33,548 nt of DNA from Gemmatimonadales bacterium (GTDB lineage Bacteria; Gemmatimonadota; Gemmatimonadetes; Longimicrobiales; Gaopeijiaceae): positions 1-33,548 of the forward strand of contig REBP01000169.1 in NCBI GenBank assembly GCA_007692665.1, read 5' to 3'. A program made the position numbers and the translations under genes. Below, in pieces: positions 12,523-33,095 of this stretch; the stretch's first letter is position 1, and the number at the start of each line of letters is the position of its first letter. The notes below the pieces were generated by a model. It saw only the letters and a list, made by a program, of their open reading frames with translations. It ran no database searches and was not told the DNA's origin.

Positions 12523-12737
12523 TCCAGTGGAGCCAATCGGGATCGAACCGATGACCTCCTGCTTGCGAAGCATCCAGGTCGCTCATCGGTGCGATCGCGG
12601 GTGAAGCCCCGTAAACCCTCAATAGCACAATGATGGCGCGGCTTTTCGGCCATTGCCATACCTCCTGCTACCCGGAACCCTCGCGCACCCGTGAGCGGGT
12701 TTTCCGGGCAACGTCATACCACCTTGTCATACCACCC
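12523..12737. repeat. 215-bp direct repeat, copy 1 (contains tRNA-Ala 3' half)
   Basis: This segment aligns without gaps to 27326-27540 with about 15 mismatches counted by eye. It contains the 3' half of a tRNA-Ala on the minus strand, a GTGAGC-type hairpin with a short T-run, and a doubled GTCATACCACC motif at its right edge. The two copies enclose about 14.6 kb of metal-resistance genes. Confidence 0.85.
12528..12572 (-). pseudogene. tRNA-Ala 3' fragment, anticodon-like CGC
   Basis: On the minus strand the segment reads as anticodon loop (TTCGCAA), GCAGG stem strand, variable loop, T-arm ATCGG-TTCGATC-CCGAT and acceptor strand ending GGCTCCA. The D-arm and the 5' acceptor strand are absent, and the 5' anticodon stem strand no longer pairs well. 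It looks like the att-side half of a tRNA gene left by integration. Confidence 0.6.
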
Positions 12738-14697: not shown

Positions 14698-17600
14698 CTA
14701 CGCTCCGGAACGATTGATATCGACAGCCATCGGGGACCTCCCGGGTGCGTTCCGATCCCGGCCCGCCTCCCACTCGCGCCAGACCGAGTATACGGCCGGG
14801 ACCACGAAGAGCGTGAGAATCATCGCGGTCACCAGTCCGCCGACAAGGGGCGTCGCGATGCGGTGCATGGTGGCGGCGCCCACACCCGAAAGCCAGAGCA
14901 GGGGCAGAAGTGCGGCGATGTCCGAGACGACGGTCATGAGCACGGGGCGAAGCCGCTGGCTGGCTCCTTCCGTGATCGCCGCGATGATCTCCCCGCGGCC
15001 AGGACGCCCCCCCGACCTCTGCAGCAGCGACGCATACGCCTGGTCGAGGTAGATGAGCATGACCACGCCCATTTCCACGGCAAGCCCCGCCAGGGCGATG
15101 AACCCCACCCACACCGCTACGCTCGTCTCGAAGCCCTGGACCCAGACGAGCCAGACGCCTCCCACGAGGGCGAAGGGAAGGGTGAGCATGACGATGAGGG
15201 TCTTCGTGATGCTCCCGAAATGCAGGAAAAGGAGGATGAACACGATGGCGAGGGTGAGCGGCACGATCAGGCTCATTCGCGCGCGCACCCGCTCCATGGC
15301 CTCGAACTGGCCGGCCCAGGAGAGGGTGTAGCCGGGTGGCAGCTCCAGTTCGGCGGCCAGGTGCTCTGCGGCTTCGGACACGTACCCCCCCAGGTCCCGT
15401 CCTTCGACATCCAGGAAAACCGACGTCACCGGGAAGGCGTTCTCTGTCCGGATGACCATGGGGCCCTCCGAGAAGCCGATGCGGGCCACCGAGGCCAGGG
15501 TGGTCTCACCCCCGCCGGGAAGCGGGATCCGGACCTCCCCTACCCCCTCCGGCGAGTCACGGAAGTCCCGGGCGTAGCGAACCGTCACCGCGTACCGCTC
15601 CCGACCCTCCACGGTCTGGGTGACCGCCGTGCCCCCGATGGCGGTCATGAGCACGTCCTGCACGTCGCCCACGTTCAGGCCGTACCGCGCCGCCGCCGCC
15701 CGGTCGACCTCCACATCAAGATAGGCACCGCTCACCCCGCGTTCGGCTGCCGCCCCCCGGGTACCCGGAACCTCCCGGAGGATCGCCTCGGCCCGCACGC
15801 CCAGGCGCTGGAGTTCATCCAGGTCCGGACCGAAGATCCGCACTCCCACGGGCGTGCGCATCCCGGTGGTGAGCATGTCGATCCGGTTCTGGATGGGGAG
15901 CGTCCAGAGGTTGCTGATCCCCGGGATCCGTGTGGCCTCGTCCAGCTCGTCGACGAGCCGTTCCATGGTCATCCCGCTCCGCCATTCCCCCTCGGGCCTC
16001 AGGTTCACCACGGTCTCGAACATGTCCAGCCCGGCCGGATCCGTGGCGGTGTTCGCGCGGCCCGCCTTCCCCACCACGCTTTCCACCTCCGGAAAGCCGG
16101 CGATGATCCGGTTCTGCTGCATCATCCGGTCCCGGGCCTCGTCGATGGAGATCCCGGGGAGGGTCATGGGCATGAAGAGCAGCGTTCCCTCCTCGATGGG
16201 GGGCATGAACTCGGACCCGAGTTGCCGGGCAGGCAGCACGGTGACGGCCAGGACCAGCACCGCGCCTCCCAGGAGGAGCCATCGATGGCGGAGGGCCCCG
16301 GTGAGGGCGGGGCGATACCCGCGCAGGAGCACGCGGCTGATGGGGTTCTCGGCCTCGCTTCGAACCCGGCCGCGAATGAAGAGCCCCAGCGTGACGGGGA
16401 TGAGGGTGATCGAGAGGAGGGCGGCCGACGCCATGGCCAGCGTCTTGGTCCAGGCCAGGGGGTGGAAGAGCCGCCCCTCCTGGGCTTCCAGGGCGAACAC
16501 CGGGAGGAAGCTCACGGTGACCACCAGGAGCGAGAAGAAGATGGCGGGACCCACCTCCGACGACGCCTCCGCCACCAGGGTCCACCGGCGCTCCGGCGAG
16601 ATCTCTCCCTCTTCCCTCTCCAGGTGCTTGTGGACGTTGTCGATGAGGACGACTCCGGCGTCCACCATGGCCCCGATGGCAATGGCGATCCCGGCCAGCG
16701 ACATGATGTTGGCCTGGACCCCGAGGAGTCGCATGGCGAGGAAGGCACCCAGAACGGCGAGGGGGAGCGTCACCACCACCACCAGCGCGCTTCTGAAGTG
16801 GAGGAGGAAGAGCCCGGCGATGAGGGCCGTGACGAGGAGCACCTGGAGAATCGTGCGGCCCAGGTTCGAGATCGCGTCACGGATCAGGGGGGCGCGGTCG
16901 TAGGCGTCCACGATCCGCACGCCCTCGGGGAGTCCCGGAGCCAGGTCGGCGAGGCGCGCCCGGACCGCGTCGATGACCTCGAGTGCGTTTTCTCCGTGGC
17001 GCATCACCACGATCCCCGAGACCACCTCCCGCTCGCCGTTCCAGTCCGCAACCCCGCGGCGGAGGTCGGGTCCGAGCTGAACGTGGGCCACGTCGGCCAC
17101 CCGCACCGGGGTCCCCCCGGGGCCCGATCCGATCACGATGTTCTCGATGTCCTCGACGGATCCGATGTAGCCGAGTCCCCGTACCATGTACTCTCGCCCG
17201 GCAGCCTGGATCACGCGCGCGCCCACGTCGGCATTTGCCGAACGGATGGAGGCCTTTACCCGGTCCAGCGAGAGCCCGAACCCCTGGAGGCGCTGCGGGT
17301 CCACGTCCACATGGTACTGCCGGACATGCCCGCCGAGGGCAGCCACCTCGGCCACGCCGGGCACGGACTGGAGCTGGTACCGGAGGTAGTAGTCCTGGAG
17401 GCTTCTGAGCTCCGCCAGATCGTGGCGATCCGACTCGAGTACGTACTGAAAGACCCACCCCACCCCGGTGGCGTCGGGGCCGAGACGCGGGTTCACACCC
17501 TCCGGCATCTCGTCGCGGACCTGGGCCAGGTACTCGAGGACCCGGCTCCGCGCCCAGTACGGATCCGTCCCGTCCTCGAAGATCACGTAGACGTAGGAGA

Positions 17601-17868
17601 CCCCGAACGCCGAGATCCCCCGTACCGTCCTGGCCCGGGGAACGGACAGCAGCGCGGTGGTCAGCGGGTAGGTGACCTGGTCCTCTACCACCTGGGGTGC
17701 CTGCTCCATCCAGTCGGTCTGGACGATCACCTGGACGTCGGAGAGATCCGGAATGGCGTCCACCGTAGTGGTGCGGACCGCCCAGATCCCCAACCCGACG
17801 AACAGCACGCTGAGCAGGATCACGAGGGTCCGGTGCCGGACGGATCCGACGATGATGCGAGTCAGCAT
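14698..17868 (-). CDS. cusA: Cu(I)/Ag(I) efflux RND transporter CusA
   Basis: A 1056-residue inner-membrane RND pump of full length, proton-driven and working with CusB and CusC. The transmembrane proton-relay region reads IAIAIGAMVDAGVVLIDN. The copper methionine triad of CusA is conserved: Met about 567 in LLFMPMTLPG, Met about 615 in GLDMFETVV and Met about 664 in NRIDMLTTG, close to the E. coli positions 573, 623 and 672. This favours copper/silver over the Zn/Co/Cd (CzcA) type. It is the last gene of cusCBA, 10 bp after cusB. The plus strand opposite it is open for 1167 codons, which is a GC artefact. Confidence 0.93.
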   Translation of the reverse strand: MLTRIIVGSVRHRTLVILLSVLFVGLGIWAVRTTTVDAIPDLSDVQVIVQTDWMEQAPQVVEDQVTYPLTTALLSVPRARTVRGISAFGVSYVYVIFEDGTDPYWARSRVLEYLAQVRDEMPEGVNPRLGPDATGVGWVFQYVLESDRHDLAELRSLQDYYLRYQLQSVPGVAEVAALGGHVRQYHVDVDPQRLQGFGLSLDRVKASIRSANADVGARVIQAAGREYMVRGLGYIGSVEDIENIVIGSGPGGTPVRVADVAHVQLGPDLRRGVADWNGEREVVSGIVVMRHGENALEVIDAVRARLADLAPGLPEGVRIVDAYDRAPLIRDAISNLGRTILQVLLVTALIAGLFLLHFRSALVVVVTLPLAVLGAFLAMRLLGVQANIMSLAGIAIAIGAMVDAGVVLIDNVHKHLEREEGEISPERRWTLVAEASSEVGPAIFFSLLVVTVSFLPVFALEAQEGRLFHPLAWTKTLAMASAALLSITLIPVTLGLFIRGRVRSEAENPISRVLLRGYRPALTGALRHRWLLLGGAVLVLAVTVLPARQLGSEFMPPIEEGTLLFMPMTLPGISIDEARDRMMQQNRIIAGFPEVESVVGKAGRANTATDPAGLDMFETVVNLRPEGEWRSGMTMERLVDELDEATRIPGISNLWTLPIQNRIDMLTTGMRTPVGVRIFGPDLDELQRLGVRAEAILREVPGTRGAAAERGVSGAYLDVEVDRAAAARYGLNVGDVQDVLMTAIGGTAVTQTVEGRERYAVTVRYARDFRDSPEGVGEVRIPLPGGGETTLASVARIGFSEGPMVIRTENAFPVTSVFLDVEGRDLGGYVSEAAEHLAAELELPPGYTLSWAGQFEAMERVRARMSLIVPLTLAIVFILLFLHFGSITKTLIVMLTLPFALVGGVWLVWVQGFETSVAVWVGFIALAGLAVEMGVVMLIYLDQAYASLLQRSGGRPGRGEIIAAITEGASQRLRPVLMTVVSDIAALLPLLWLSGVGAATMHRIATPLVGGLVTAMILTLFVVPAVYSVWREWEAGRDRNAPGRSPMAVDINRSGA

Positions 17869-17878
17869 GGCCGGCCCC

Positions 17879-19156
17879 TCAGTGTCCCATCGCCGAGTGA
17901 TCCGTTCCCCCCGCCCCCGTCATGAGCCGGGACTCGGCGTCGAGGAGGAAGGCACCCCGTGCCACCACCCGCTCCCCTTCGCGAAGTCCCGCCACAACCC
18001 GAACCTGGTCCGCCGAGGCACCGGCCAGGGTCACCTCCCGCCCAACGAAGTGGCCGGGGTGCTCCTCCACGAAGACCACGTCCCTTCGACCGGCCCGAAT
18101 GACGGCATCCCGGGGGAGGAGAAGTGCCGGCCCATCCGCCGGGGCATCCCTTCCGGCCTCCAGGGTGACGGTGGCGTACATCCCCTCCCGGATGGAGCCG
18201 TCGGGGTTGGACATGCTGATCCGCAGTCGACCCGTTCGGGTGACCGGATCCACGCTCGGGTACACGAGGGCCACGCGTCCCTCCCGGTGGCTCCCGGGGA
18301 ACGCCTGGAACTCGATCCGGGCGCTCTGGCCCTCTCGGACGAGGCCCATGTCGTTTTCCGGCACGCGCGCCTCGATCCAGATCGGGCTCGGTGCGGCCAG
18401 ACGGAAGAGCGGGGATCCGGGGCCCACCCGCTCGCCGACCTGCACCAGGCGCTCCGTGACCACGCCACCTTCTCGGGCCAGAACCGTGTGGACCAGCGGT
18501 ACCTCCCCGGTCAGGAGCACCTGGTCCACCAGGGCGTCGGGCACCTCCCACGACGCGAGGCGGCGGCGGGCGGCCTCGAGGAGGCCGGACGTTGCGGGAC
18601 CGTCGCCGGGCCGCGCGACCCCGGCCAGCCGACGCTCCAGCCGGTCGGCGCTCACGAGCTCCTCGAAGGCCGCGACGAGATCCGGCGAATAGATGTCCAG
18701 GAGGGGGGCACCGGCGCGGACCCGGTCACCGGTGGAGGCAACGTGCAGCCGCTCGACGTACCCCCCGTACCTCAGCGTCATCGTGGACAGCCGTGACTCG
18801 TCCCATTCCACCGAGCCGGTGACCCGGAGCACTGCCGGAAGCTCCCCCCGAACCGCGGCAACGGTACGGATCCCCAGCGCCTCCACCCGGGCGGGATCGA
18901 GCTGCACCTCCGCCGCCCAGGGATCCATCTCGTCGCCCTCGTCCACCTGGTGGGCCGCGTGCGGGTCCTCGGGGGGCATGGCGTGCCCCGCATGGGGGTC
19001 CGTCGGGGGTCCCGTGACCTGGTCGCTCCGGGACTCCGAAACGTCGGGATCCTCGGAGGATGTGCAGGCGGCGCCGGCTCCGAGGAGGAACAGGATCCCG
19101 GCAAGCCGGAGGGCGGTGCCGAGGCGGGGCGAGCCGAAGGGAACGCATCTGCTCAT
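17879..19156 (-). CDS. cusB: Periplasmic adaptor CusB of the copper efflux system
   Basis: A 425-residue membrane-fusion lipoprotein (lipobox GAAC, Cys31). A His/Met-rich segment DPHAGHAMPPEDPHAAH follows and probably binds metal. The adaptor body includes the YGGYVERLHVASTGDRVRAG lipoyl-like half, a helical hairpin and the matching ETVLAREGGVV-like half, then beta-barrel and membrane-proximal domains. The C-terminus ends in HSAMGH, a second possible metal site. It links CusA to CusC across the periplasm. The start overlaps the cusC stop as ATGA. Methionine-based Cu(I) transfer to CusA is known for the E. coli homologue. Confidence 0.9.
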   Translation of the reverse strand: MSRCVPFGSPRLGTALRLAGILFLLGAGAACTSSEDPDVSESRSDQVTGPPTDPHAGHAMPPEDPHAAHQVDEGDEMDPWAAEVQLDPARVEALGIRTVAAVRGELPAVLRVTGSVEWDESRLSTMTLRYGGYVERLHVASTGDRVRAGAPLLDIYSPDLVAAFEELVSADRLERRLAGVARPGDGPATSGLLEAARRRLASWEVPDALVDQVLLTGEVPLVHTVLAREGGVVTERLVQVGERVGPGSPLFRLAAPSPIWIEARVPENDMGLVREGQSARIEFQAFPGSHREGRVALVYPSVDPVTRTGRLRISMSNPDGSIREGMYATVTLEAGRDAPADGPALLLPRDAVIRAGRRDVVFVEEHPGHFVGREVTLAGASADQVRVVAGLREGERVVARGAFLLDAESRLMTGAGGTDHSAMGH

Positions 19157-20556
19157 TGATCGGGATCCGAAAAGAGGGTGAACCCGACGGCCGCTTCCAG
19201 GCGCGCCGCGGCGACGGACAGGTCCCGGGCCGCGCGGGCCCCCTCCAGCTCCGCGGCCAGAAGGGTCAGAAGTGCATCGAGAACGGGGAGAAAGGAGGCA
19301 CCTTCCGAACCGGCCCGGAACCCCGCCATGGCGGCCTCCACCGTGGCGGTGGCCTGCGGGAGAAGGAGGCGGTCGGTGAGGTGGAATCTCTCCCGGGAAC
19401 GAAGCAGGTCCGACCAGGCCGCCAGGACCTGGGCATCGACCTCCGCCGACGCCTTTCGGGCGTCATCCCTGGCGCCCTCCAGGTCCATGCCCGCAGCACG
19501 AGCCAGCGGCTCCTGCTTCCTTCCCCGGAAGAGGGGGACGCCCACCGACATGGAAACGCTCCAGAGGTTGTCCATCCCGGCCCTGTGACCGTATCCGAGC
19601 ATGACCGACAGGTCCGGCCGCCGCTCCTGCTCGGCCAGTCGGCGGTCCGCCGATGCCGCCCCGACAACCTCGGTCGCCGCGAGGACACTCGGGTGTTCTC
19701 TCGTGGCTCGTTCGCGGAGCTCTTCCAGCGAGGGGATGCCGCTGACGGTGTCGGACGTGGGGAGGGTCGGACCGAAGGCCCCGAATGCGGGCGCCATGGC
19801 CAGCAACCGCCCCCATGCTTCGGGCCGCCGCACGCCGAAGCCCGGGGCCAGTGCCGAGTCCAGGAGGGCCCGCAGGCTCGCCTCGGTCCGGGCTCTCGCT
19901 CCCCGCAGGTCGCTTGCCCGTTCGTCGAGCCGGGTCAGCTCCGCCTGGGTGCGCACCACCTCGGCCTGCCCTGCGGATCCGACCGCAAGCCGGGACAGCG
20001 TCATCTCTCCGAGCTCGCGGAGGAGTTCGCGGGAGCGGTCAAGGGTCCCGAGGGCGTCGTCGAGGAAGAGGAGCTCGGCGTAGGCCTGCGCAACGCCGAG
20101 TCGCAGCTCGAGGGCGCGTTCCTCCCGCCGGTGCTCCAGCTCCCGCCACCTGGCCTCGGCGGCCCGGGTCCTGGCGTCCCTGACCCCCGGCGCGGGGAAA
20201 CGCTGACCGACCTCCAGTACCGCCATGGACATCCCTTCCCGGGAGAGGTCCACCGTACCCACGGGGAGATTCATGAGCCCTGCGGTAACCATGGGGTCGG
20301 GGAGGGCTCCCGCCGGGGCCACCCGCTCCCGCGCAGCCTCCCCGCTGCGCCGTGCGCGCGCCAGCTCCGGGTTCTCCCTCTCGAGCCGATCCAGGAGTTC
20401 CGGCAAGGTATGCACGGCGGGCGCCTGGGCGCTCACCTCCATCGCGGTGGCCCCGGACGCGGCGACGGAGACCACGAGCCAGAGGGGAACCGTCACCATG
20501 CGAAGCGTCCGGGGCCCCATGACACGGCATGGATCTTCATGTGAGGCGTGGCGCAT
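19153..20556 (-). CDS. cusC: Outer-membrane efflux channel CusC, TolC family
   Basis: A 467-residue TolC-family outer-membrane factor. It has a signal peptide ending near SAQA, then two repeats of long amphipathic helices with the typical LPELLDRLERENPELARARRS opening and PDPMVTAGLMNLP strand. The second repeat shows LEELRERATREHPSVLAATE and SVGVPLFRGRK. It is the first gene of cusCBA. Two downstream in-frame Met codons (start near 20520 or 20499) would give a shorter n-region; the choice between them is uncertain. A triple 11-bp direct repeat lies 104-131 bp upstream of the start. Confidence 0.88.
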   Translation of the reverse strand: MRHASHEDPCRVMGPRTLRMVTVPLWLVVSVAASGATAMEVSAQAPAVHTLPELLDRLERENPELARARRSGEAARERVAPAGALPDPMVTAGLMNLPVGTVDLSREGMSMAVLEVGQRFPAPGVRDARTRAAEARWRELEHRREERALELRLGVAQAYAELLFLDDALGTLDRSRELLRELGEMTLSRLAVGSAGQAEVVRTQAELTRLDERASDLRGARARTEASLRALLDSALAPGFGVRRPEAWGRLLAMAPAFGAFGPTLPTSDTVSGIPSLEELRERATREHPSVLAATEVVGAASADRRLAEQERRPDLSVMLGYGHRAGMDNLWSVSMSVGVPLFRGRKQEPLARAAGMDLEGARDDARKASAEVDAQVLAAWSDLLRSRERFHLTDRLLLPQATATVEAAMAGFRAGSEGASFLPVLDALLTLLAAELEGARAARDLSVAAARLEAAVGFTLFSDPDQ

Positions 20557-20659
20557 GGACCCTTCCCATCCCTGTGAGCCCCTCGCGAGGCCCCCGATGG
20601 TCCAGGGGCCAGCGTACGATCAACCGGAGATCGGCTGGACCGAAGGTCGCCACTCGTCC

Positions 20660-20687
20660 ATGAAGCGAAGATGATCCCGCCATGAAG
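20660..20687 (-). promoter_or_regulatory. Triple 11-bp direct repeat upstream of cusCBA
   Basis: On the plus strand ATGAAG, ATGATC and ATGAAG start at 20660, 20671 and 20682, exactly 11 bp apart. Read on the minus strand the first unit is CTTCATGGCGG. The layout is that of OmpR/PhoB-type regulators, and the same pattern occurs at 24806-24833. The palindrome TGAAGATTTCTTCA at 20683-20696 partly overlaps it. Confidence 0.6.
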
Positions 20688-20710
20688 ATTTCTTCACGCG
20701 GGGGAGAAGG

Positions 20711-22777
20711 TCAGAGCTTGACCCGCCTCAGGAGCTGGGCATTCAGGGCCACGACCACGGTGCTGGCCGACATGAGGACGGCCCCCACCGCCGGAGTCAG
20801 GAGGATGCCCCACCCCACGAGGACCCCGGCGGCCAGGGGAATCGCGAAGATGTTGTAGCCCGCGGCCCACCACAGGTTCTGGACCATCTTTCGGTAGGTG
20901 GCCTGTGACAGGGTCACGATCCGGGGGATGTCCCGGGGATCGGAGCGCACCAGGACGATGTGCCCCGCCTCCACGGCCACGTCGGTCCCCGCCCCGATGG
21001 CGATCCCGATGTCGGCGGTGGCCAGGGCCGGCGCATCGTTCACGCCGTCGCCCACCATGGCCACCTTCTTCCCCTGAGCCTGGAGCTCCTTCACCTTCGA
21101 TGCCTTGTCCTCGGGGAGCACCTCGGCGAACACGGTGTCGATCCCGAGCTCCTCCGCCACGGCCTCGGCGACGGCCCGGGCGTCGCCGGTGAGCATGGCC
21201 ACCTCGATGCCCCGCTCCTGAAGGGCCCGGACGGCCTCGTGGCTCTCCTCGCGAATGGCGTCCGCCACGGCGAAGACGGCCAGGGCCCGTCCGTCCCTGA
21301 GCAGGTAGATGGCGGCCTGGCCCCGATCGGCTGCCGTCGTGGCCGCGTCCTGGAGGGATGAAGGCACCTCGGCCGATTCGGCCTCCAGGAGCGCCGGGCC
21401 GCCCACCTGGTACTCCACGTCGTCGACCGTGGCGGCCACCCCCTTCCCCGTGATGGCCCGAAAATCCTGGGGCTCGGGAAAGGCGATCTCCCGATCCCGG
21501 GCCGACATGACGATCCCCCGGGCAATGGGGTGTTCGGACTCGGACTCCACGGCGGCGGCGGCCCGGAGTGCATCGTCCTCCGACACGTCGTCGGCCACGG
21601 TCATTTCCACTACGCGGTGCTCGCCCAGCGTGAGGGTGCCCGTCTTGTCGAATACGACGATGTCCAGGCTCCGGGCCTCTTCCAGGCCCCGACGATCCCG
21701 GATCAGGAGCCCCTCGCGGGCTCCGAGAGTCGTGGAGATGGACACGACCAGCGGAATGGCGAGCCCCAGTGCGTGGGGGCACGCGATGACCAGGACGGTG
21801 ACGGTCCGGACGATGGAGAAGTCGATGGGGGCCCCGAGGAACTGCCAGACCACGAGGGTCAGGACCCCGGCCCCGAGGGCCACGCCGGTGAGGAGCCGGG
21901 CCGCCCGATCTGCCAGGTGCTGCGCCCGGGACTTGGACTTCTGGGCATCGGAGACGAGCCGCATGATCCCGGAGAGGGTCGTCTCGTCTCCCGTCCGCGT
22001 CACCTCCACGCGGAGGGAGCCCTCTCCGGCGATGGTCCCGGCGATGACCCCGTCCCCTTCCTTCTTCTTCACCAGACGGGACTCCCCCGTGATCATGGCC
22101 TCGTTCACATCGCTCGACCCACTTCGGACCACACCGTCGGCGGCGACGCTCTCCCCGGGGCGGACGAGAATCACGTCGCCGTCCTGGAGCTCGCTCACCG
22201 GAACGTCTTCCTCCCCACTGTCCGTGACCCGCGTCGCGGTGTCGGGGAGCAGCTTCGCCAGTTCCTTGAGGGCGCCCTGGGCCTGGTCGATGGACCGCAT
22301 CTCGATCCAGTGACCAAGGAGCATGATCGTGACCAGGGTGGCCAGCTCCCACCAGAGGGCCGAAGCGTCGATGAAACCGAGGTCCACGACCCAGGAGAAG
22401 ATGAACGCGACGCTGATGGCCAGGGCAATGAGCGTCATCATCCCGGGGAGGCGGTCCTTCAGCTCCCGCCAGGCGCCTTCCAGGAAGGCCCATCCCCCAT
22501 AGAAGTAGACGAAGGTCCCCAGGATTGCCGGGATCCACGCAGCGCCGGGGAAGGCCACGGCCTCGTAGCCAAGGAGTCCCTGGATGTGGTCCGACCAGTA
22601 GACCACGGGAAGCGTCAGGACGAGGGAGAGCCAGAACCGGTCCCGGAATTTTTCCGGTGTGTGCCCTTCGTGGCTGTCATGGCCTTCGTGGCTGTCATGG
22701 TCCTCATGGTCGTCATGGGCATCCCCGTCGCGCGGGTCGTGGACGGTGTCCCCGTGGCTGAGCTCCTTCCTGTCCAT
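20711..22777 (-). CDS. copB: Copper-translocating P1B-type ATPase, CopB (CPH) type
   Basis: A 688-residue membrane ATPase. The N-terminus is a His-rich metal-binding tail (about residues 13-39, repeated DSHEGH units) instead of a CxxC heavy-metal domain. Eight membrane helices are expected. The transport motif is CPH at 333-335, typical of P1B-3 pumps for Cu(II) or Cu(I) and Ag. The catalytic motifs are complete: TGES at 230-233, DKTGTLT at 377-383, a SEHP motif, and GDGVND in the hinge. It exports copper to the periplasm. It is the last gene of the operon with the NTF2-like and CopCD genes, 36 bp after copCD. Confidence 0.92.
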   Translation of the reverse strand: MDRKELSHGDTVHDPRDGDAHDDHEDHDSHEGHDSHEGHTPEKFRDRFWLSLVLTLPVVYWSDHIQGLLGYEAVAFPGAAWIPAILGTFVYFYGGWAFLEGAWRELKDRLPGMMTLIALAISVAFIFSWVVDLGFIDASALWWELATLVTIMLLGHWIEMRSIDQAQGALKELAKLLPDTATRVTDSGEEDVPVSELQDGDVILVRPGESVAADGVVRSGSSDVNEAMITGESRLVKKKEGDGVIAGTIAGEGSLRVEVTRTGDETTLSGIMRLVSDAQKSKSRAQHLADRAARLLTGVALGAGVLTLVVWQFLGAPIDFSIVRTVTVLVIACPHALGLAIPLVVSISTTLGAREGLLIRDRRGLEEARSLDIVVFDKTGTLTLGEHRVVEMTVADDVSEDDALRAAAAVESESEHPIARGIVMSARDREIAFPEPQDFRAITGKGVAATVDDVEYQVGGPALLEAESAEVPSSLQDAATTAADRGQAAIYLLRDGRALAVFAVADAIREESHEAVRALQERGIEVAMLTGDARAVAEAVAEELGIDTVFAEVLPEDKASKVKELQAQGKKVAMVGDGVNDAPALATADIGIAIGAGTDVAVEAGHIVLVRSDPRDIPRIVTLSQATYRKMVQNLWWAAGYNIFAIPLAAGVLVGWGILLTPAVGAVLMSASTVVVALNAQLLRRVKL

Positions 22778-22813
22778 GATCAGGCTCCCTTGCCTTGCGT
22801 TTCGATGGTCTCC

Positions 22814-24259
22814 TCAGCGGGGGAGTGGCAGAGCCACCAACGCCGCCGTCACCAGGAGCACGACCAGGCCGGCCCCAAGTTCCATTCCCGCGGTCCTGCG
22901 GAGGCGCTCCGCCCCGCCGGCCTCGCCGAGCCCGGGCTTCACCACAAGCGCATTGCGGGCCCCCAGGGCAAGGACTGCGGCAACGAAGGCGCCCTTGAGG
23001 AGGAGGACCCTTCCGTACCCGCTCCCCAGGAGCGCCGACCAGCTCCCGAGATTCAGGGCTGCCATGAACGTGCCGGTGCCCACCATCAGTGCGGCGAAGA
23101 CAAGCGCCACGGGCGAGAAGGCGCGCACCAGGGCGACAACGCCCTCACGTGAACCGGCGCTCCGATCCCGAAGCGCTGCGGGTACTCCGACCACGAGGAG
23201 GGCGAACAGGCCACCCATCCAGCCCCCGGCTCCGAGGACGTGCACCGCATTGGCCGGGATCGTGAGGAGCGGTGCCGCGGAGGCTCCCGCCGCGTGACCG
23301 GAAAGGGCCGGAACAAGGGCCAGCCCCACCCCCCCGACGGCAGCAAGCGCCCACCCGAACCGGTGGCCACGGGTGGCGAGCCAGAACCCGACGATGACCA
23401 CCGGGACCCCCATCGCCTGGAGGATCCATCCCGATCCCCACGCTCCGGTGGACGCCACGCTCACCAGGAGGTCCAGTTCGGGAACCGCCAGCTCACCCCG
23501 TATCCCGGCCGCCTGCAGCACGAGTCGTACGGGGGTGGCCAGCAGGAGCAGGATCGCGCACCACAACCCCAGCTTCGCCAGCTCCCGGGACCATCCTGCC
23601 TCATGGGCCCTCACGGCACCCGAGTTCCGGCTTGCGGCCGCGAGCACCCCGACCCGGAACACCAGTGCCCCGAGAAGGCCCGTGAGGGCGAGGAGGGAGA
23701 TCCAGCGCGTGAGGACGAAGGGCCAGGACGATGCGTCGAAGGATCGTTCGAGAAGCGGAGGGGGGACGAAGCCGCCCTCGGGGACGGGTTCCTGCGCAGG
23801 GTCGGCTGCATGCGGGGCGGCCGCTTCGGACTCCAGCGCCACCGGCAGGAGGTCGAAGGCATAGGCTCCCTCGACGGGATGCCCGTCGGCCCCGGTCGTG
23901 CGCCAGCGAACGGTATGGCTTCCGGACCGGATCAGGTCCCCGACCTGGACCACGAGGACGCGGTCCGACGCTTCCGAAAGCCTGGGTTCCCCGAGGGGGA
24001 CCTGGCTACCGTCCGGAGCGAAGAGTTCGACGACGGTGAAGGAGAGTCGGACGGGCTCGTAGAAAGTGAGCCTGAGCTCCCTCGGAACCTGCTCGAGCTC
24101 CGATTCGCTCGCCGGGTCCGCAGACACCAGCGTCTGATGGGCCCATGCCAGCGTTGCCCCGCCAACCGACCCTGTCACCACCAGGGCCAGGATCAGGCCC
24201 GTCCAGGCTTTCCCCGGCCGCGGACGTTCGCGCCATGATCGCATGGGGTCGACGATCAC
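22814..24259 (-). CDS. CopC-CopD fusion (periplasmic copper-binding domain plus copper membrane protein)
   Basis: A 481-residue protein. A signal peptide ends at AWA, so the mature protein starts with HQTLVSADPASESEL, the CopC N-terminus whose first His is a copper ligand. The CopC fold continues to about residue 135 with GTGADGHPVEGAYAFDL-like strand end. An Asp/Pro linker leads to eight or so hydrophobic helices of CopD, with GHAAG and NAVHVLGAGGWMGGLFAL. Fused CopC-CopD (YcnJ/CopCD) proteins handle copper import or balance. It starts at GTG overlapping the NTF2-like gene stop (GTGA); a Met six codons in is an alternative. Confidence 0.88.
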   Translation of the reverse strand: MIVDPMRSWRERPRPGKAWTGLILALVVTGSVGGATLAWAHQTLVSADPASESELEQVPRELRLTFYEPVRLSFTVVELFAPDGSQVPLGEPRLSEASDRVLVVQVGDLIRSGSHTVRWRTTGADGHPVEGAYAFDLLPVALESEAAAPHAADPAQEPVPEGGFVPPPLLERSFDASSWPFVLTRWISLLALTGLLGALVFRVGVLAAASRNSGAVRAHEAGWSRELAKLGLWCAILLLLATPVRLVLQAAGIRGELAVPELDLLVSVASTGAWGSGWILQAMGVPVVIVGFWLATRGHRFGWALAAVGGVGLALVPALSGHAAGASAAPLLTIPANAVHVLGAGGWMGGLFALLVVGVPAALRDRSAGSREGVVALVRAFSPVALVFAALMVGTGTFMAALNLGSWSALLGSGYGRVLLLKGAFVAAVLALGARNALVVKPGLGEAGGAERLRRTAGMELGAGLVVLLVTAALVALPLPR

Positions 24260-27325: not shown

Positions 27326-27540
27326 TCCAGTGGAGCCAATCGGGATCGAACCGATGACCTCCTGCTTGCAAAGCAACCAGGTCGCTCATCCGTGCGATCG
27401 CGGGTGAAGCCCCGTAAACCCTCAACACTATAAGAATGGCGCGGCTTTCCGGCCCTTGCCATACCTCCTGCTACCCGGAAGCCTCGCTCACCCGTGAGCG
27501 GGTTTTCCGGGCAATGTCATACCACCTTGTCATGCCACCC
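27326..27540. repeat. 215-bp direct repeat, copy 2 (contains tRNA-Ala 3' half)
   Basis: This is the partner of 12523-12737, the same length and about 93% identical by eye. Differences cluster in a 15-bp stretch past the tRNA-like part. It closes the copper-resistance region on its right and abuts the transposase remnant. Confidence 0.85.
27331..27375 (-). pseudogene. tRNA-Ala 3' fragment, anticodon-like TGC
   Basis: The minus strand shows anticodon loop TTTGCAA, the GCAGG stem strand, T-arm ATCGG-TTCGATC-CCGAT and GGCTCCA at the end. The D-arm is missing and the sequence upstream does not fold as a tRNA 5' half. Copy 1 has CGC at the same place; both are Ala anticodons. Confidence 0.6.
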
Positions 27541-27818
27541 GAAATGGGACGTTTAAGGACCAAAGGGAGCTTCGGGGCTTTGGGTGGGGGAGCCGTTCTG
27601 GCTGGGCGTGCCGACGTACCCTCAGGAACCGGGGAGTCCATGTGAGGTGATCCCCGGGGGCGAGGAAGCTCGAACCAGATGATGCCACCGATTCCGCCGC
27701 CGCTCCGTTTTCCCCTTCGCTTGGGGTTCCGGTGACGAACGGCTCAAGGATCGCGTGGTGCAATTCGGCGGCGATCCCGAGGCCGTGGTCCGCTCGCCGA
27801 ATCGGGGGGAAGACCAAG

Positions 27819-28097
27819 GATCCGCTGGGCGTCCTCCTCGTCGATAAAGTAATGTTGCGACAGGCGCTCTCGCCTCAGCAGCGAGTTGAACGCCTCGGCG
27901 AACGCGTTGTCCGTCGGCTTCCCCGGCCGGCTGAAATCCAGCCGCACCCGGTTCCAGTAGGCCCAGTGGTCCAGGCTCTTCGAGGTAAACTCCGTCCCCT
28001 GGTCCACCGAGATCACCTTGGGGAGGGCGGATCGCTCCGCGCCTGTTTCGGACAGGATCCCGGCCACATCCTCCCCTGTGAACTTCCGCACGACTCG
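27819..28097 (-). pseudogene. IS3-family transposase OrfB remnant
   Basis: About 93 codons of an IS3-type integrase core. SVDQGTEFTSKSLDHWAY holds the second catalytic Asp, and GKPTDNAFAEAFNSLLRRE holds the catalytic Glu region, followed by HYFIDEEDAQRIL. The first Asp block and the C-terminal RPHSSLG region are missing or scrambled, so the element is dead. It lies on the right side of repeat copy 2. Sequence from 28098 to 28426 shows no gene; at 28278-28303 a CCCGAAGTGGGATATTTCAA stretch resembles one at 27538-27558 in direct orientation. Confidence 0.8.
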
Positions 28098-28426: not shown

Positions 28427-28927
28427 ATGCTTTCTACCGTCCGCAGGATGCTCCTCCTGGGCGCAGCGAGCGCTGTCCTGGCAGCTCTCCCGACTGCAGC
28501 AGAGTCCCAAGAGCCTGGTGGTGATGAGGGGGTGTGCCGCAACTGCGCCGAGGGCGTCTACTACGGGGCACCGGCCCATTTCTGGGTTGGATCCGCTGGT
28601 TGCGAACCCACGGAGCCCGGGGGCTCCGCGGGTGCGGGAGGGGAATCGAGCGCCCCTGGATGCAAGCTGTGCTCGTCTGGGCATTGCGACAACCCACAAG
28701 TACCGCACGGTGGCCAATGCCCCACTGCCGGTTGTGACGACGACGTTGAACTACTCAAGAGGAGTGACATTGCGTTGATCCGCGCGGATCCGGACCAAGG
28801 GGTCCAGGCACTCGCTGCGGCCGGAGTTCCACATCTCCGCACCCAGTTCGGAGTCGCTCTGTTGAACTGCAGAGGGCAGGCGTTCGCCTTTGTACCTAAT
28901 TCCACGGTTGGCCGCGGAGGTGCTTGA
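28427..28927 (+). CDS. Exported Cys-rich protein preceding a beta-propeller lipoprotein
   Basis: A 166-residue protein. The signal peptide (RRMLLLGAASAVLAALPTAAES) is followed by a Cys-rich middle with GVCRNCAEG, an AGC, PGCKLCSSGHC, GGQC and AGC, nine Cys in the mature part. The C-terminal third, after CDDDVELL, is a short ordinary segment with DQGVQALAAAGVPHL. A strong GGAGG Shine-Dalgarno six bases upstream fixes the start at 28427. I do not recognise a family. Its stop overlaps the next gene, a beta-propeller, by 8 bp, so they are co-transcribed. Disulfide bonding outside the cytoplasm is likely. Confidence 0.7.
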   Translation: MLSTVRRMLLLGAASAVLAALPTAAESQEPGGDEGVCRNCAEGVYYGAPAHFWVGSAGCEPTEPGGSAGAGGESSAPGCKLCSSGHCDNPQVPHGGQCPTAGCDDDVELLKRSDIALIRADPDQGVQALAAAGVPHLRTQFGVALLNCRGQAFAFVPNSTVGRGGA

Positions 28928-30125
28928 ACCGCACTTGCCTCGGGGCCATCCCGGTCGGCGCCTTAGCTCGGGCACCCTGGCCTGCCTGCTGGTCTCGCTC
29001 ATCGGGTGGGGCTGTGGGGGCGATCTCGAGAACCTGGCCGAGGGTGGGGCGGCCGACCTGGCGGGGGCGGAGCGGGGCCTCCCGGGTCTTTCGCGGTGCA
29101 TAGTCCTCGAGCCCGGGGTTGACCTTCATCTCGACGCCACGAGCCCCGTGGGGATGGGCCTTCTGCCCCAGGTCATCACGACGCGCGGCGGTCAGATCCT
29201 CGTGCACGACGACTTTGCTTCCACGGGCGGGGGGCCGCTTGCGTTCGATTCAGTCGGGGCGTTTGTCGGCGTGGTCGGTGGCTCAGGTGACGGACCCGGC
29301 GAGTTCCGCCTTCCGTCCCGCATCGCTTCCGATGGCGATTCGATCGTGCTGGTGCATGACCGGGCCCACGGCCTGAAAGTGTTGACCCCTTCCGGCAGCG
29401 AAGTGGGTCGATATCCCGATGTAGCGTACCCCCGGGGGGGGCTGGCGGTGCTGAGCGACTCCCTCTTCGTGGTAGGAACACCCGCGGTCCGGCCTGCGGC
29501 GGCGCCCGATCGAGATCTCTTCGCGTACGATGTTCGGTCGGGAGAGCTGGTCTCGGCGTTTGGCCCCCGAACGGAATTCATTCCAGGGGGGGCACTTCGC
29601 ATCACCGCGGTGGCGCCGTCTGGCTCGCACGGCGTATGGGCCGTTACGGCGCCGAATCGGGTCCACCACTTCACGGTCGGCGACGAGCATGCGACTTCGG
29701 AGGTGGTGTTCCCCTCCGACTGGCTTGCGCAGGTCGAGGCGCTTGAAATCCGCACTCCAGCAGACACGGGCTACGTGTTTCATTCCGTTTACGAAGACCA
29801 ATCCGAAGGGGTGCTCTGGGTGCTCAGTACGCCCCGTGAGCCCGGGGCGCCGAATCCGTTTGAATCTCCGGTGCCGGGCGCACCCCTGTCCATCGATTTG
29901 CTGACGGTGAGCTCCGTTGTGGCCCATCGACGCACGGTGATCTCTGCGGTTCACCTAGCTCGGGGCGAGGTCATCGGGCACAGCATCGTGGACGGCTTGG
30001 GCCTGCAATTCACGCCCGACGGGCGGCTCGCGGCGATGCAGGCGGGAGCTGATTTTTCTCCCGAGATCCGACTGTGGAGGCTCAGGCTTTCAAATGGGGA
30101 GGAGAGTCCCGACCTATGTCGGTAG
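28920..30125 (+). CDS. Six-bladed beta-propeller lipoprotein
   Basis: A 401-residue exported protein. An n-region with Arg pairs and the hydrophobic LACLLVSLIGWGCGG suggest lipoprotein processing at Cys, though GWGC is an imperfect lipobox. The rest shows repeated propeller strands, including FASTGGGPLAFDSVG followed by GGSGDGPGEFRLPS, typical of 6-bladed NHL/TolB-like lipoproteins common in Gemmatimonadota. The start is a GTG at 28920; an upstream TTG at 28890 is an alternative. It follows the Cys-rich protein with an 8-bp overlap. Ligand and function are unknown. Confidence 0.75.
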   Translation: MLEPHLPRGHPGRRLSSGTLACLLVSLIGWGCGGDLENLAEGGAADLAGAERGLPGLSRCIVLEPGVDLHLDATSPVGMGLLPQVITTRGGQILVHDDFASTGGGPLAFDSVGAFVGVVGGSGDGPGEFRLPSRIASDGDSIVLVHDRAHGLKVLTPSGSEVGRYPDVAYPRGGLAVLSDSLFVVGTPAVRPAAAPDRDLFAYDVRSGELVSAFGPRTEFIPGGALRITAVAPSGSHGVWAVTAPNRVHHFTVGDEHATSEVVFPSDWLAQVEALEIRTPADTGYVFHSVYEDQSEGVLWVLSTPREPGAPNPFESPVPGAPLSIDLLTVSSVVAHRRTVISAVHLARGEVIGHSIVDGLGLQFTPDGRLAAMQAGADFSPEIRLWRLRLSNGEESPDLCR

Positions 30126-30163
30126 CCCGTGGCCTGTACCGAATCGGACTCGGTGGGGTCTCG

Positions 30164-30360
30164 GGACTTGGCGTGGAAGGCCACCCCGGACTCGACCGGG
30201 TCACATCTTCCCTCGGACTTCATCCCTCCCGGACCGCCTCGTAGAGCCCGCCAACATTTGTGTGCCAAACCGGGATGAGACGACCCCACAACACAAACCG
30301 GCGCAGTCGTGCCGTCCGCATGACTGCGCCGTTTTCCTGAGATCACCCGAACACCCATCG
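30164..30360. repeat. Imperfect direct repeat A (~190 bp) between the two propeller modules
   Basis: Blocks GGACTTGGCGTGGAAGGCC, TGTGCCAAAC and the hairpin plus GATCACCCGAACACCCATCG recur in the same order and orientation at 32911-33095. Spacing differs by a few bases. The two copies flank the minus-strand peptide operon. No gene is seen in the 30126-30469 gap. Confidence 0.6.
30299..30335 (+). terminator. Rho-independent terminator-like hairpin in repeat A
   Basis: CGGCGCAGTC (30299-30308) pairs perfectly with GACTGCGCCG (30322-30331), followed by TTTT. It could end transcription of the plus-strand Cys-rich/propeller operon that stops at 30125. Confidence 0.7.
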
Positions 30361-30469
30361 AGCGGCGTCCTGCCCACACATGCAAGCCTCCAGCGAACCC
30401 GTGGCGGTTCAATCGTACCCTCGGCTTGAAGGCGGATCCGGACGGTCGACCGCGAAGGCATGTCCCGAC

Positions 30470-31573
30470 CTACGGTCGCTCGGCCGGGGCTTCACCTGGA
30501 GAAAACACCGACGGCTCCACCACGAAGAACGCGGGGACCCCCTCCATGCGACCACTCAGGAGCACCCCGTAATCGGAATGCGCCGCATGCAGCGTGTACC
30601 ACCCGTCGAGATCGAAGAGTTCAACCCAACTACTCCCGTCCCATTCGGAGAAGCGGGTCCACCGTCCTTCCTGCTGGAGGACCGGCCCATGGCGGGTTGC
30701 CCAGATCACGCGGTCGCCCAGGAGGGCAACCCCGGCGGGGAACGGCTCGGTACCCCTGTCCCATACGGCGCTGTACGTGCCCGCAGCGTCCCGCTCACTT
30801 GTCGGTCGCATGTAGGGCGAATCGCCGAGTTCCAGCGAAGCCAGCGTGCGGACGCTGCCGTCCTCGCAACGGATCTCCAGCAGTCGAGGGCCCTCGAGTT
30901 CCTCCGTGAACAGGACGATGCGCTGCTCGTTGCGGGCCAGGAAGGGCGGGTGGTCGAAACCGTTGCCGCGAAGTCGGCCCAGACGGGCATAGGGCTCACC
31001 GAGGCCGGAGGCCCCGACCGAATGGAGACTCGGGACCGAGTCCTCGCGGGGCGCCGTCAACACGACCCAATCCTCGTGGCAGCCCCTGATCGCCCCTCGC
31101 GCGGGCCGCTCGAAGTTCTCGAAGCGCACGATCTCGTTTCCGCCCCAGTCCCTCACCACGAGTCCGGGGCGTCCAACGACCGCGACTCGGTCAGCTCCGC
31201 CGAAGTTCACGCCCAGCGGACCGCTCAACTCACCCGGACCCCTTCCCCGAGGCCCTGCACTGTCGACGAGTTGCCCCTGGCGATCGAACTTGAGGAGGTG
31301 GGGGGGGCTCCGCTGGAGCACGACCACCTCGCCGGCTTCGGTCAGGGTCGCGTCGAGCACGTAATCGATGGGCGGATCCGCGGGATCACCACCGACAGTG
31401 AGCCTGAGCGGCAGGCTATCGAGGGAACGGAGCTCGGGAACGTCATCCACCTCCACCGCGTCCCCGCATCCCGCCACGGGCAAGGCGAGCGCCGAACAGA
31501 CGATGAGGGCATTTACGTGCGGGGCACGACTCGCCTTCCTTCCGCGAGCGGTCCGGATTCTCATGGTGGTCAT
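30470..31573 (-). CDS. Six-bladed beta-propeller lipoprotein, last gene of the peptide operon
   Basis: A 367-residue protein. A signal peptide ends in the lipobox LPVAGC. Propeller signatures include ATLTEAGEVVVLQRSPPHLLK followed by FDRQGQL, and AGPRGRGPGELSGPLGVN, the GPGE pattern of these 6-bladed repeats. It lies at the end of a minus-strand operon after two small Cys-rich peptides and a thioredoxin-fold protein, and its ATG overlaps the stop of the latter as ATGA. It is related in layout to the propeller at 28920 and converges on it. The function is unknown; it could bind the peptides or act with them at the cell surface. Confidence 0.78.
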   Translation of the reverse strand: MTTMRIRTARGRKASRAPHVNALIVCSALALPVAGCGDAVEVDDVPELRSLDSLPLRLTVGGDPADPPIDYVLDATLTEAGEVVVLQRSPPHLLKFDRQGQLVDSAGPRGRGPGELSGPLGVNFGGADRVAVVGRPGLVVRDWGGNEIVRFENFERPARGAIRGCHEDWVVLTAPREDSVPSLHSVGASGLGEPYARLGRLRGNGFDHPPFLARNEQRIVLFTEELEGPRLLEIRCEDGSVRTLASLELGDSPYMRPTSERDAAGTYSAVWDRGTEPFPAGVALLGDRVIWATRHGPVLQQEGRWTRFSEWDGSSWVELFDLDGWYTLHAAHSDYGVLLSGRMEGVPAFFVVEPSVFSPGEAPAERP

Positions 31574-32106
31574 CCTTTGGTACCAAGGAAAGCCAGAATG
31601 CGAGGGAACCGCCTTCCGACGAGCTTTCCAGAGAGAAGATCATGTAGGGTCCCGATCCGCGAGGGCTTGGACGACAGTATCACTCCGTTGCCGTCTACGA
31701 CAATTTCCGCGGGAACCCACCCCACCCCCCACCGCTCGATTAGTTCGCCCCTTCTCGCGTGGACTAGGTGGGAAGCGGCGACCCCCGTCGAAAGCCGGTT
31801 GAGCCCGCCGCCGGCCATTGGTGTCGCCTCAAGCACCACCCATACGTGCTCGCCGCGATCCTGACTCCTGCTCCAGAACTGCTGGTACTTCCCGTCACGG
31901 GCCTCGCAGACAGCACATCGCTCCGAGACGAAAAGGATACGGGCTCGCTCAGGTGAATGGGAGTCTACCCACGGGCCATCTAAGGTCGCCCCAGGCTGGG
32001 GGAGGTGTTGGGAGACCATTCCGGTGCTACTGTAAGCCCCCCAGCACAAGACAAGTGCGAAGCAAATCGCAATCACAGCGAGAGTTCTATTCCATACGCA
32101 CATCAT
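31570..32106 (-). CDS. Membrane-anchored thioredoxin-fold protein
   Basis: A 178-residue protein with an uncleaved-looking N-terminal helix (LAVIAICFALVLCWGAY). The thioredoxin-like core has RILFVSERCAVCEARDGKYQQF with a CAVC active site and the cis-Pro segment WVPAEIVVDGNGVI further on. It resembles TlpA/redoxin-type oxidoreductases on the periplasmic face. It is positioned after two eight-Cys peptide genes and before a beta-propeller gene, so shaping or reducing disulfides in those peptides is an obvious inference. ATGA overlap with the propeller supports one operon. Confidence 0.8.
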   Translation of the reverse strand: MMCVWNRTLAVIAICFALVLCWGAYSSTGMVSQHLPQPGATLDGPWVDSHSPERARILFVSERCAVCEARDGKYQQFWSRSQDRGEHVWVVLEATPMAGGGLNRLSTGVAASHLVHARRGELIERWGVGWVPAEIVVDGNGVILSSKPSRIGTLHDLLSGKLVGRRFPRILAFLGTKG

Positions 32107-32180
32107 TTAACAGCCCCGCTTAATTGGCAGCCCCCGCCGATTTTCTGTGGCAACGGATATCCCCTTACCGGCACCGCATC

Positions 32181-32399
32181 TCAATCGGGCGGGCATCCTA
32201 TTTCAGAAAAGAAGCACGTATAGTTGCACAAACCATGTTCGTTGCACCCCACAAACCAGCATATTTCTCCCTCGGTCGTCGAGGGCATACACCAAGGGCA
32301 ATCCCAAGTATCCATACAACCCTCGCTGGCGAGAAGTATCTGAGCTCCAGCGACTACAGCCAACACAGTAGCAGAAACAGCAAGAAGAGCCGACTTCAT
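32181..32399 (-). CDS. Small exported eight-cysteine peptide, copy 2
   Basis: A 72-residue protein. The signal peptide MKSALLAVSATVLAVVAGAQ is followed by a short mature part with eight Cys: EGC, DC, PWC, EIC, VGC, GLC, YTC and IGC. The C-terminus FFSEIGCPPD matches the paralogue at 32480-32707. The start is fixed by GGAGG seven bases upstream. No known family is recognised. GC is lower here than in the rest of the window, suggesting transfer. Confidence 0.75.
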   Translation of the reverse strand: MKSALLAVSATVLAVVAGAQILLASEGCMDTWDCPWCMPSTTEGEICWFVGCNEHGLCNYTCFFSEIGCPPD

Positions 32400-32479
32400 C
32401 TTCCTACCTCCTGATCTCGAGGACACTGTGGTTTCGGATCTATTCCACTCCCAGCGGGCTTTCACGGCAAGCGCATCCC

Positions 32480-32707
32480 TCAATCTGGAGGGCACCCTGC
32501 CTCGCTCTCAAAACAGGTATACTTGCACTCCCCCCCGATACAATGCGTGTGAATGCAGACATCCCACTCAGGATCATCTTCGTGGCAGTAGGGGCACTTC
32601 GGATCCGATGGACAGCCATCCGTCAAGACCAACGCGGCCGACGGTATTGCGATTGCAAGTGACAAGACGAGCAAGAGCGATCTGGCGCCATGCTTTGCGA
32701 CTTCCAC
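32480..32707 (-). CDS. Small exported eight-cysteine peptide, copy 1
   Basis: A 75-residue protein. A hydrophobic signal segment (SLLLVLSLAIAIPSAALV) is followed by eight Cys in the same order as the downstream paralogue: DGC, KC, PYC, DVC, HC, EC, YTC and AGC, with the shared ending ESEAGCPPD. The mature part is acidic and has paired His (CIHTHC), so metal binding is possible. GTG at 32707 is chosen because GAGG lies six bases upstream; an upstream TTG at 32713 abuts the Shine-Dalgarno. It is the first gene of the peptide-thioredoxin-propeller operon. Confidence 0.72.
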   Translation of the reverse strand: MEVAKHGARSLLLVLSLAIAIPSAALVLTDGCPSDPKCPYCHEDDPEWDVCIHTHCIGGECKYTCFESEAGCPPD

Positions 32708-32910
32708 GCGCAACCTCTCTTCGGGATGGTTCAGGAAAGACCTTAGTGGACGCTACTGAAGCCGAACCATACGACTTCTAAACCCATTTATCAGCGGTAG
32801 CCGGATTGCGCAAGCGGGGTCGTCCCACGGGCGCAAACTGAGCGGGATAAATCGGACCGGGTTTGCCGGAGGCACATTTCTGTGAGCGCATTCTCGGCGG
32901 GATCGCCACC

Positions 32911-33095
32911 GGACTTGGCGTAGAAGGCCTCCTCCCCCTCGGCCGCCAACCATCTCGCGGAACCCGTGCGCATGTGCGAAGCGTGTGCCATTGGTGTGCC
33001 AAACCCTCAATGACGGGACCCCATTACGTGAAGCGGCCCGGTCATGCAACTCGCATGCCTGGGCCGTTTTCGTGGGATGACCTGAATACCCAACG
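32911..33095. repeat. Imperfect direct repeat B (~190 bp) outside the peptide operon
   Basis: This is the partner of 30164-30360. Shared blocks are GGACTTGGCGTAGAAGGCC, TGTGCCAAAC and the hairpin followed by a GATGACCTGAATACCCAACG-like end. The sequence between 32714 and 32910 shows no gene. Confidence 0.6.
33034..33070 (+). terminator. Terminator-like hairpin in repeat B
   Basis: CGGCCCGGTCATGC (33034-33047) pairs with GCATGCCTGGGCCG (33053-33066) with one mismatch and one G-T pair, then TTTT. Compared with repeat A the stem keeps pairing while bases change, for example a G-C pair replaced by C-G. No plus-strand gene precedes it here. Confidence 0.6.

Follow-up and report, generated by a model that had tools for sequence, protein, structure and literature searches.

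The 33,548-nucleotide stretch analysed here (the window) is positions 1-33,548 of contig REBP01000169.1 of a Gemmatimonadales bacterium, whose genome (G000) is a metagenome-assembled genome (MAG) of the phylum Gemmatimonadota with a size of 4.23 Mb in 258 contigs. Towards the right end of the window, two gene modules converge and lie end to end, module 1 on the plus strand and module 2 on the minus strand. Each pairs exported small proteins rich in cysteine (Cys) with a β-propeller lipoprotein, and module 2 also encodes a probable thioredoxin-fold oxidoreductase. We report that such gene sets recur elsewhere in the phylum, and we consider what they may do at the cell envelope.

Genes of the two modules

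The features of the locus are as follows (aa, amino acids).

28427..28927, plus strand: P0006, exported protein of 166 aa with 9 Cys, representing type B of the gene cassette described below; its homologues in genomes G154, G335 and G157 adjoin propellers
28920..30125, plus strand: P0001, predicted NHL-type propeller lipoprotein, partner of P0006; matches the propeller profile described below and, weakly, PF17170 (E 0.008)
30302..30339, no strand assigned: terminator-like stem-loop GGCGCAGTCGTGC...GCATGACTGCGCC TTTT, between the convergent modules and inside repeat D1, read from the sequence
30470..31573, minus strand: P0002, predicted NHL-type propeller lipoprotein (VAGC); matches the same propeller profile
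31570..32106, minus strand: P0003, membrane-anchored CAVC protein, probable thioredoxin-fold oxidoreductase, from its motif and a weak DsbA-family profile match
32181..32399, minus strand: P0004, exported 8-Cys peptide, 72 aa, from its Cys spacing and paralogy with P0005
32480..32707 (GTG start) or 32713 (TTG start), minus strand: P0005, exported 8-Cys peptide, 75-77 aa, paralogue of P0004, from identity and Cys spacing

All genes named in the original prediction, which was made from the DNA letters and their translations, are present. In module 1, P0006 has a signal-like N-terminus and nine Cys residues, and P0001 carries a lipobox-like GWGC. The start of P0001, for which there is no ATG, is uncertain and may be either GTG at 28920 or TTG at 28890; the overlap that had been described between the two genes amounts to 8 nt with the P0006 stop if GTG is used. 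In module 2, the predicted paralogues P0004 and P0005 are 41% identical, contain eight Cys each and have a common core spacing, C-x5-C-x2-C-x9-C-x4-C, and the start of P0002 overlaps the stop of P0003 as ATGA. Tiny exported Cys-rich open reading frames (ORFs) of this kind are overlooked here by a simple gene caller; a simple hydrophobicity criterion, not a trained predictor, served to call signal peptides. P0006, P0004 and P0005 have no meaningful match in Pfam or NCBIfam, and there is no peptide family in PADLOC either. Module 2 is bracketed by a 107-bp imperfect direct repeat (73%) with a terminator-like stem, at positions 30255-30360 and 32989-33095, partial copies of which are present on contig C238. 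The GC content falls to 54-59% over positions 32000-33000, a dip that may reflect foreign origin.

The propeller profile was built from 88 regional sequences. It matches P0001 at 4e-37 and P0002 at 1e-30, both being from the region that was the source of the profile and P0001 carrying the motif by which its seeds were picked. An alignment of 35 propellers, P0001 and P0002 included, matches solved six-bladed NHL domains (TRIM71, E 5e-77; Brat). By family membership, P0001 and P0002 are predicted to be six-bladed NHL-type propellers. The six blades proposed earlier agree with this similarity to NHL and PF17170 proteins; the AlphaFold model of P0002 is poor (mean predicted local distance difference test score of 57, with confidence limited to the first blades), and the blades could not be counted from it. 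P0001 and its relatives belong to the same broad fold family as the DUF5128/NHL-type six-bladed propellers of PF17170, although a peptide or oxidoreductase partner is not described for PF17170 in the open-access literature.

P0003 has an N-terminal membrane segment, a CAVC motif that follows a strand, and a sequence, GWVPAEIVVDGNG, resembling a cis-Pro loop. Its CAVC is aligned to the CPFC of the DsbA family found in other modules in a weak profile match (E 0.018, probability 2.6%). No Pfam or PDB match was obtained for P0003, its AlphaFold model was unusable, and a search across the phylum returned weak scattered matches only. Of the thioredoxin-fold protein with CAVC that had been predicted, the motif is present, and the fold is suggested by that motif and the profile match.

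Recurrence of the gene set in Gemmatimonadota

Profiles made from the window peptides, and then from their relatives, were run over 116 and 395 Gemmatimonadota genomes. Loci were taken as genuine when an exported small Cys-rich ORF was present in intergenic space. Among the 395 genomes there were 14 genuine loci, the two of the window included (G000 (twice), G105, G099, G082, G381, G208, G229, G164, G311, G076, G154, G335 and G157), and a propeller gene lies within two genes of the peptide in every one of them. The rough base rate for a propeller near a random gene is ca. 2% in G000, 6-8% in G154, G164 and G082, and does not exceed 19% in the genome with the most propellers. Since G099/G105/G381, G229/G164/G311 and G154/G335/G157 are sets of relatives, the number of independent lineages is about eight. 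The first relative of P0006, in G154, came from the peptide searches, and a profile of these two sequences added G335 and G157. The original prediction had asked whether propellers adjoin the peptides more often than by chance and whether most homologues might lack them; the answer is in favour of the pairing on both counts.

Matches in G257, G202, G284, G079, G330, G405, G304 and G107, as well as weak A4 matches, were set aside as spurious, that is, as lying inside a longer ORF or lacking an exported Cys-rich ORF, not every one of them having been read fully. The G099 row of the search-profile alignments A3 and A5 is a join of two frames, which affects the search profiles. The actual ORF, located at L003:1495-1677 on the minus strand, begins MLAILV, and its leader is shifted by one base from the reading frame seen in G105. 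The G099 peptide (L003:1495-1740) is either a decayed copy or the result of an assembly error.

Most loci of type A contain a DsbA- or thioredoxin-like gene, with CPFC in G105, G099, G381 and G082 and CPYC in G076; in G208 and G229, the cassette includes a membrane-anchored CxxS protein. The assignment of the DsbA forms to the oxidoreductase class is firm, and the CxxS forms are putative members on the basis of their motif. The gene equivalent to P0003 exceeds the Pfam cut-off in L003, L051, L190 and L213 (DSBA at 2.5e-13 in L003, Thioredoxin_4 at 4e-18 in L213). In two genomes, a DsbA domain and a propeller are fused in a single ORF (L051:3997-5721, minus strand, 574 aa; L190:1966-3756, plus strand, 596 aa). 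Such fusions put both functions in one place and therefore fit a common client.

An alignment of the module DsbA proteins was also scanned against 84,980 species genomes. The scan retrieved 80 loci from many phyla, at 12 of which a propeller gene on the same strand lies no more than 3 kb away. Eight of these 12 loci (L188, L191, L192, L196, L199, L204, L213 and L232) encode an intact exported peptide that contains at least six Cys, versus one of the 68 others (Fisher p = 1.5e-7, with G099 not counted as an intact peptide). When the query loci were dropped, the peptide was present at 5 of 8 versus 1 of 68 loci (p = 1.8e-5). All carriers of peptide, DsbA and propeller together are Gemmatimonadota; several of them appear, judged by isolate names, to be MAGs from sponge studies. 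At L226 (Rhodothermales), DsbA and propeller genes are present and a peptide was not found.

A third sample consisted of 40 propeller-centred stretches, 15 control stretches and stretches of the window's own genome. Modules were seen at L095 (75-aa 6-Cys peptide, CPFC DsbA and propellers) and at L089/L174 (58-63-aa peptides, CSAC protein and propellers). The control stretch L127 contains three tandem 4-Cys peptides, which, when the stretch was extended (L173), turned out to follow immediately on the genes for a propeller and a CLGC lipoprotein. The exported 8-Cys proteins that adjoin propellers at L094 and L104 were rejected as relatives of the peptides, being CxxCH cytochrome-like. The peptides imply propellers, and most propellers stand alone. 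At L023:4253-6410, in the window's own genome, an exported CLAC protein is encoded directly 5′ of a propeller, with no peptide.

The genomes of genus g25 that were listed, G025 included, contain 79-221 candidate propellers each, often in tandem, as at L085 with its 11 propeller matches within 20 kb, and one may suppose that with such numbers the pairing with peptides is a coincidence. The 14 of 14 loci stand against base rates of 2-19%, however, and the association is kept in a propeller-poor genome (that of the window), in the independent DsbA search and in the gene fusions, which makes coincidence hardly credible. Propellers of the modules are scattered over the propeller tree, with 17 label changes, at least eight of them forced by supported branches, the tree being a FastTree tree with long branches and a rough guide only. 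Since module propellers stand on many branches, it follows that the combination recurs with different propellers. Thus, the earlier view that an exported Cys-rich protein and a propeller, with or without a thioredoxin-like protein, form a functional unit is backed by further Gemmatimonadota genomes as well as by searches made independently, and the gene set is well shown to be a unit.

Cysteine framework of the peptides and competing readings

The peptides are ca. 70 aa long and diverge fast except at Cys, which is the sole invariant residue beyond the leader. For the 22 small peptides whose leader boundary is clear, the Cys count of the mature part is always even (2, 4, 6, 8 or 10); the L208 peptide, in which that boundary is unclear, was excluded. 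The spacing C-x5-C-x2-C-x9/10-C-x4-C is common to the window, G105, G082 and G381 peptides, which are otherwise little alike. Comparison of G229 with G164 gave ratios of nonsynonymous to synonymous differences (pN/pS) of 0.06 and 0.18 for two peptides of this one species pair, values that indicate purifying selection; these frames are therefore real genes, and the lack of frame conservation that would have spoken against the original prediction was not observed in this pair.

Type B proteins (P0006, G154, G335 and G157) always have nine Cys, are ca. 155 aa long and are encoded beside one or two propellers. Their consistently odd Cys count predicts one free or intermolecular Cys. P0006 is remote from its relatives (28% over the alignment, weak BLASTP matches) and likely belongs to this group, as judged by profile match, Cys layout and shared context.

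Many Cys residues may also mean metal. According to this reading, the peptides chelate or sense metal with the help of the propeller, and metal-efflux genes at positions 14698-24259 of the window are part of the system. Those genes lie within a segment bounded by a 215-bp direct repeat (93%), at 12523-12737 and 27326-27540, of which there are only two copies in the genome and which contains a tRNA-Ala-like 3′ part, no tRNA being called. The repeats bracket CzcCBA-like efflux, P1B-type ATPase, CopCD-like and two-component genes, and the segment between these att-like sequences looks like an integrated metal-resistance island. Since they are inside it, the efflux genes seem separate from the modules. 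Metal genes were not seen next to any of the other modules that were read, and the strictly even Cys count together with DsbA partners favours disulfides rather than metal. Metal binding by these modules is therefore decidedly unlikely, and of the metal-binding disulfide system suggested earlier the metal part is disfavoured. A transposase-like integrase core fragment is located at 27744-28091, between the island and module 1.

The peptides could instead be secreted antagonists similar to bacteriocins, each with its own oxidoreductase and with the propeller acting as an immunity or display protein. This would agree with the rapid divergence of the peptides at positions other than Cys and with their tandem paralogues, as well as with another peptide pair, for which pN/pS is 0.86. 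On the other hand, the mature peptides are mostly acidic (net charge of +1 to -13), neither a dedicated peptide exporter nor a double-glycine leader was found beside the modules read, and there was no match in PADLOC, whose profiles for known anti-phage defence likewise did not match any of the six proteins. We consider an antagonistic function unlikely.

The kinds of genes present are also those of mau clusters, which encode a propeller heavy chain and MauD. One can thus imagine an amine-dehydrogenase-like enzyme with a propeller large subunit, a Cys-rich catalytic small subunit and a MauD-like thioredoxin. The mau and qhp clusters resemble the modules in combining a propeller subunit, a small heavily cross-linked subunit and a dedicated maturation protein (MauD). 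The small subunit of methylamine dehydrogenase, which bears tryptophan tryptophylquinone, has six disulfides (PMC7876137). In the alignment of our peptides, in contrast, neither a Trp (as a conserved pair or as Cys-Trp for a quinone cofactor) nor any other cofactor residue is invariant, these hypervariable sequences differ in length and in their number of Cys, the propellers match six-bladed NHL domains, and no MauE, MauG, heme or radical S-adenosylmethionine gene was seen beside the modules. An enzyme of this type is very improbable here.

The NVEALA peptides (PF14055) of Bacteroidota are encoded beside six-bladed propeller (PF17170) and TlpA genes, an association that we did not find in the open-access literature. 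They resemble the peptides studied here in being small and exported and in lying near propeller lipoproteins and thioredoxin-fold genes. Unlike in that family, the Cys framework is here the sole conserved feature, and the partners are of the DsbA type in clear cases. PF14055 matches neither the window peptides nor their relatives, 61 Gemmatimonadota genomes yielded no match above its cut-off, and the N-V-E-A-L-A motif after the hydrophobic segment is absent from all peptides read. Membership in the NVEALA family was accordingly rejected; the earlier statement that no such motif is present holds, and the parallel drawn with NVEALA remains an analogy.

A possible envelope cassette

We propose that the modules are examples of a recurring Gemmatimonadota envelope cassette in which an oxidoreductase disulfide-bonds a secreted peptide and a propeller lipoprotein binds that peptide, a proposal we hold to be evenly poised between true and false. 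A Sec-type signal would export the small peptide, whose only conserved residues are Cys. The co-encoded membrane-anchored thioredoxin-fold protein (CPFC/CPYC, CAVC, CSAC, CLGC or CxxS) would form or proofread its disulfides in the periplasm, the peptide being its presumed substrate. The propeller of the same cassette, which is six-bladed, of the NHL type and in many cases a lipoprotein, would then capture the folded peptide and hold or present it at the envelope, possibly as part of a ligand-receptor arrangement. What was observed is that the genes co-occur, that the peptides have export-type leaders and even Cys numbers, that most peptide modules include an oxidoreductase, that DsbA and propeller can be fused and that, in one species pair, the peptide frame is under selection.

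Several results weigh against this proposal. Up to 221 candidate propellers are present in a g25 genome, and most propellers have no peptide, including those at 11 other loci of the window's own genome. When Cys-rich small exported ORFs were counted mechanically, there were four near propellers versus seven far from them, or 1.6 versus 0.8 per 100 kb, and the link between peptide and oxidoreductase among the sampled propellers fell short of significance (p = 0.08, with few cases). Genuine and spurious loci were sorted by ORF criteria while the neighbouring genes were visible. No oxidoreductase gene was seen in the type B modules (P0006, G154, G335 and G157), and no computation supports the thioredoxin fold of P0003 beyond its motif and weak profile match.

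In a broader form of the proposal, the cassette would be a phylum-wide peptide-receptor system, each propeller being matched to its own hypervariable disulfide-rich peptide and serving cell-cell or cell-host signalling; we regard this as possible, though on the doubtful side. A description of the cassette was not found in the open-access literature, nor was anything relevant on NVEALA or on Gemmatimonadota propellers, and judged against that literature only, the cassette is apparently undescribed. It provides a shared context for orphan exported Cys-rich ORFs, for orphan DsbA proteins and thioredoxins, and for some of the unexplained propellers of Gemmatimonadota. If the propeller does bind the adjoining oxidised peptide, this widespread phylum, of which hardly any members are in culture, would possess a system of secreted peptides that has so far gone undescribed.

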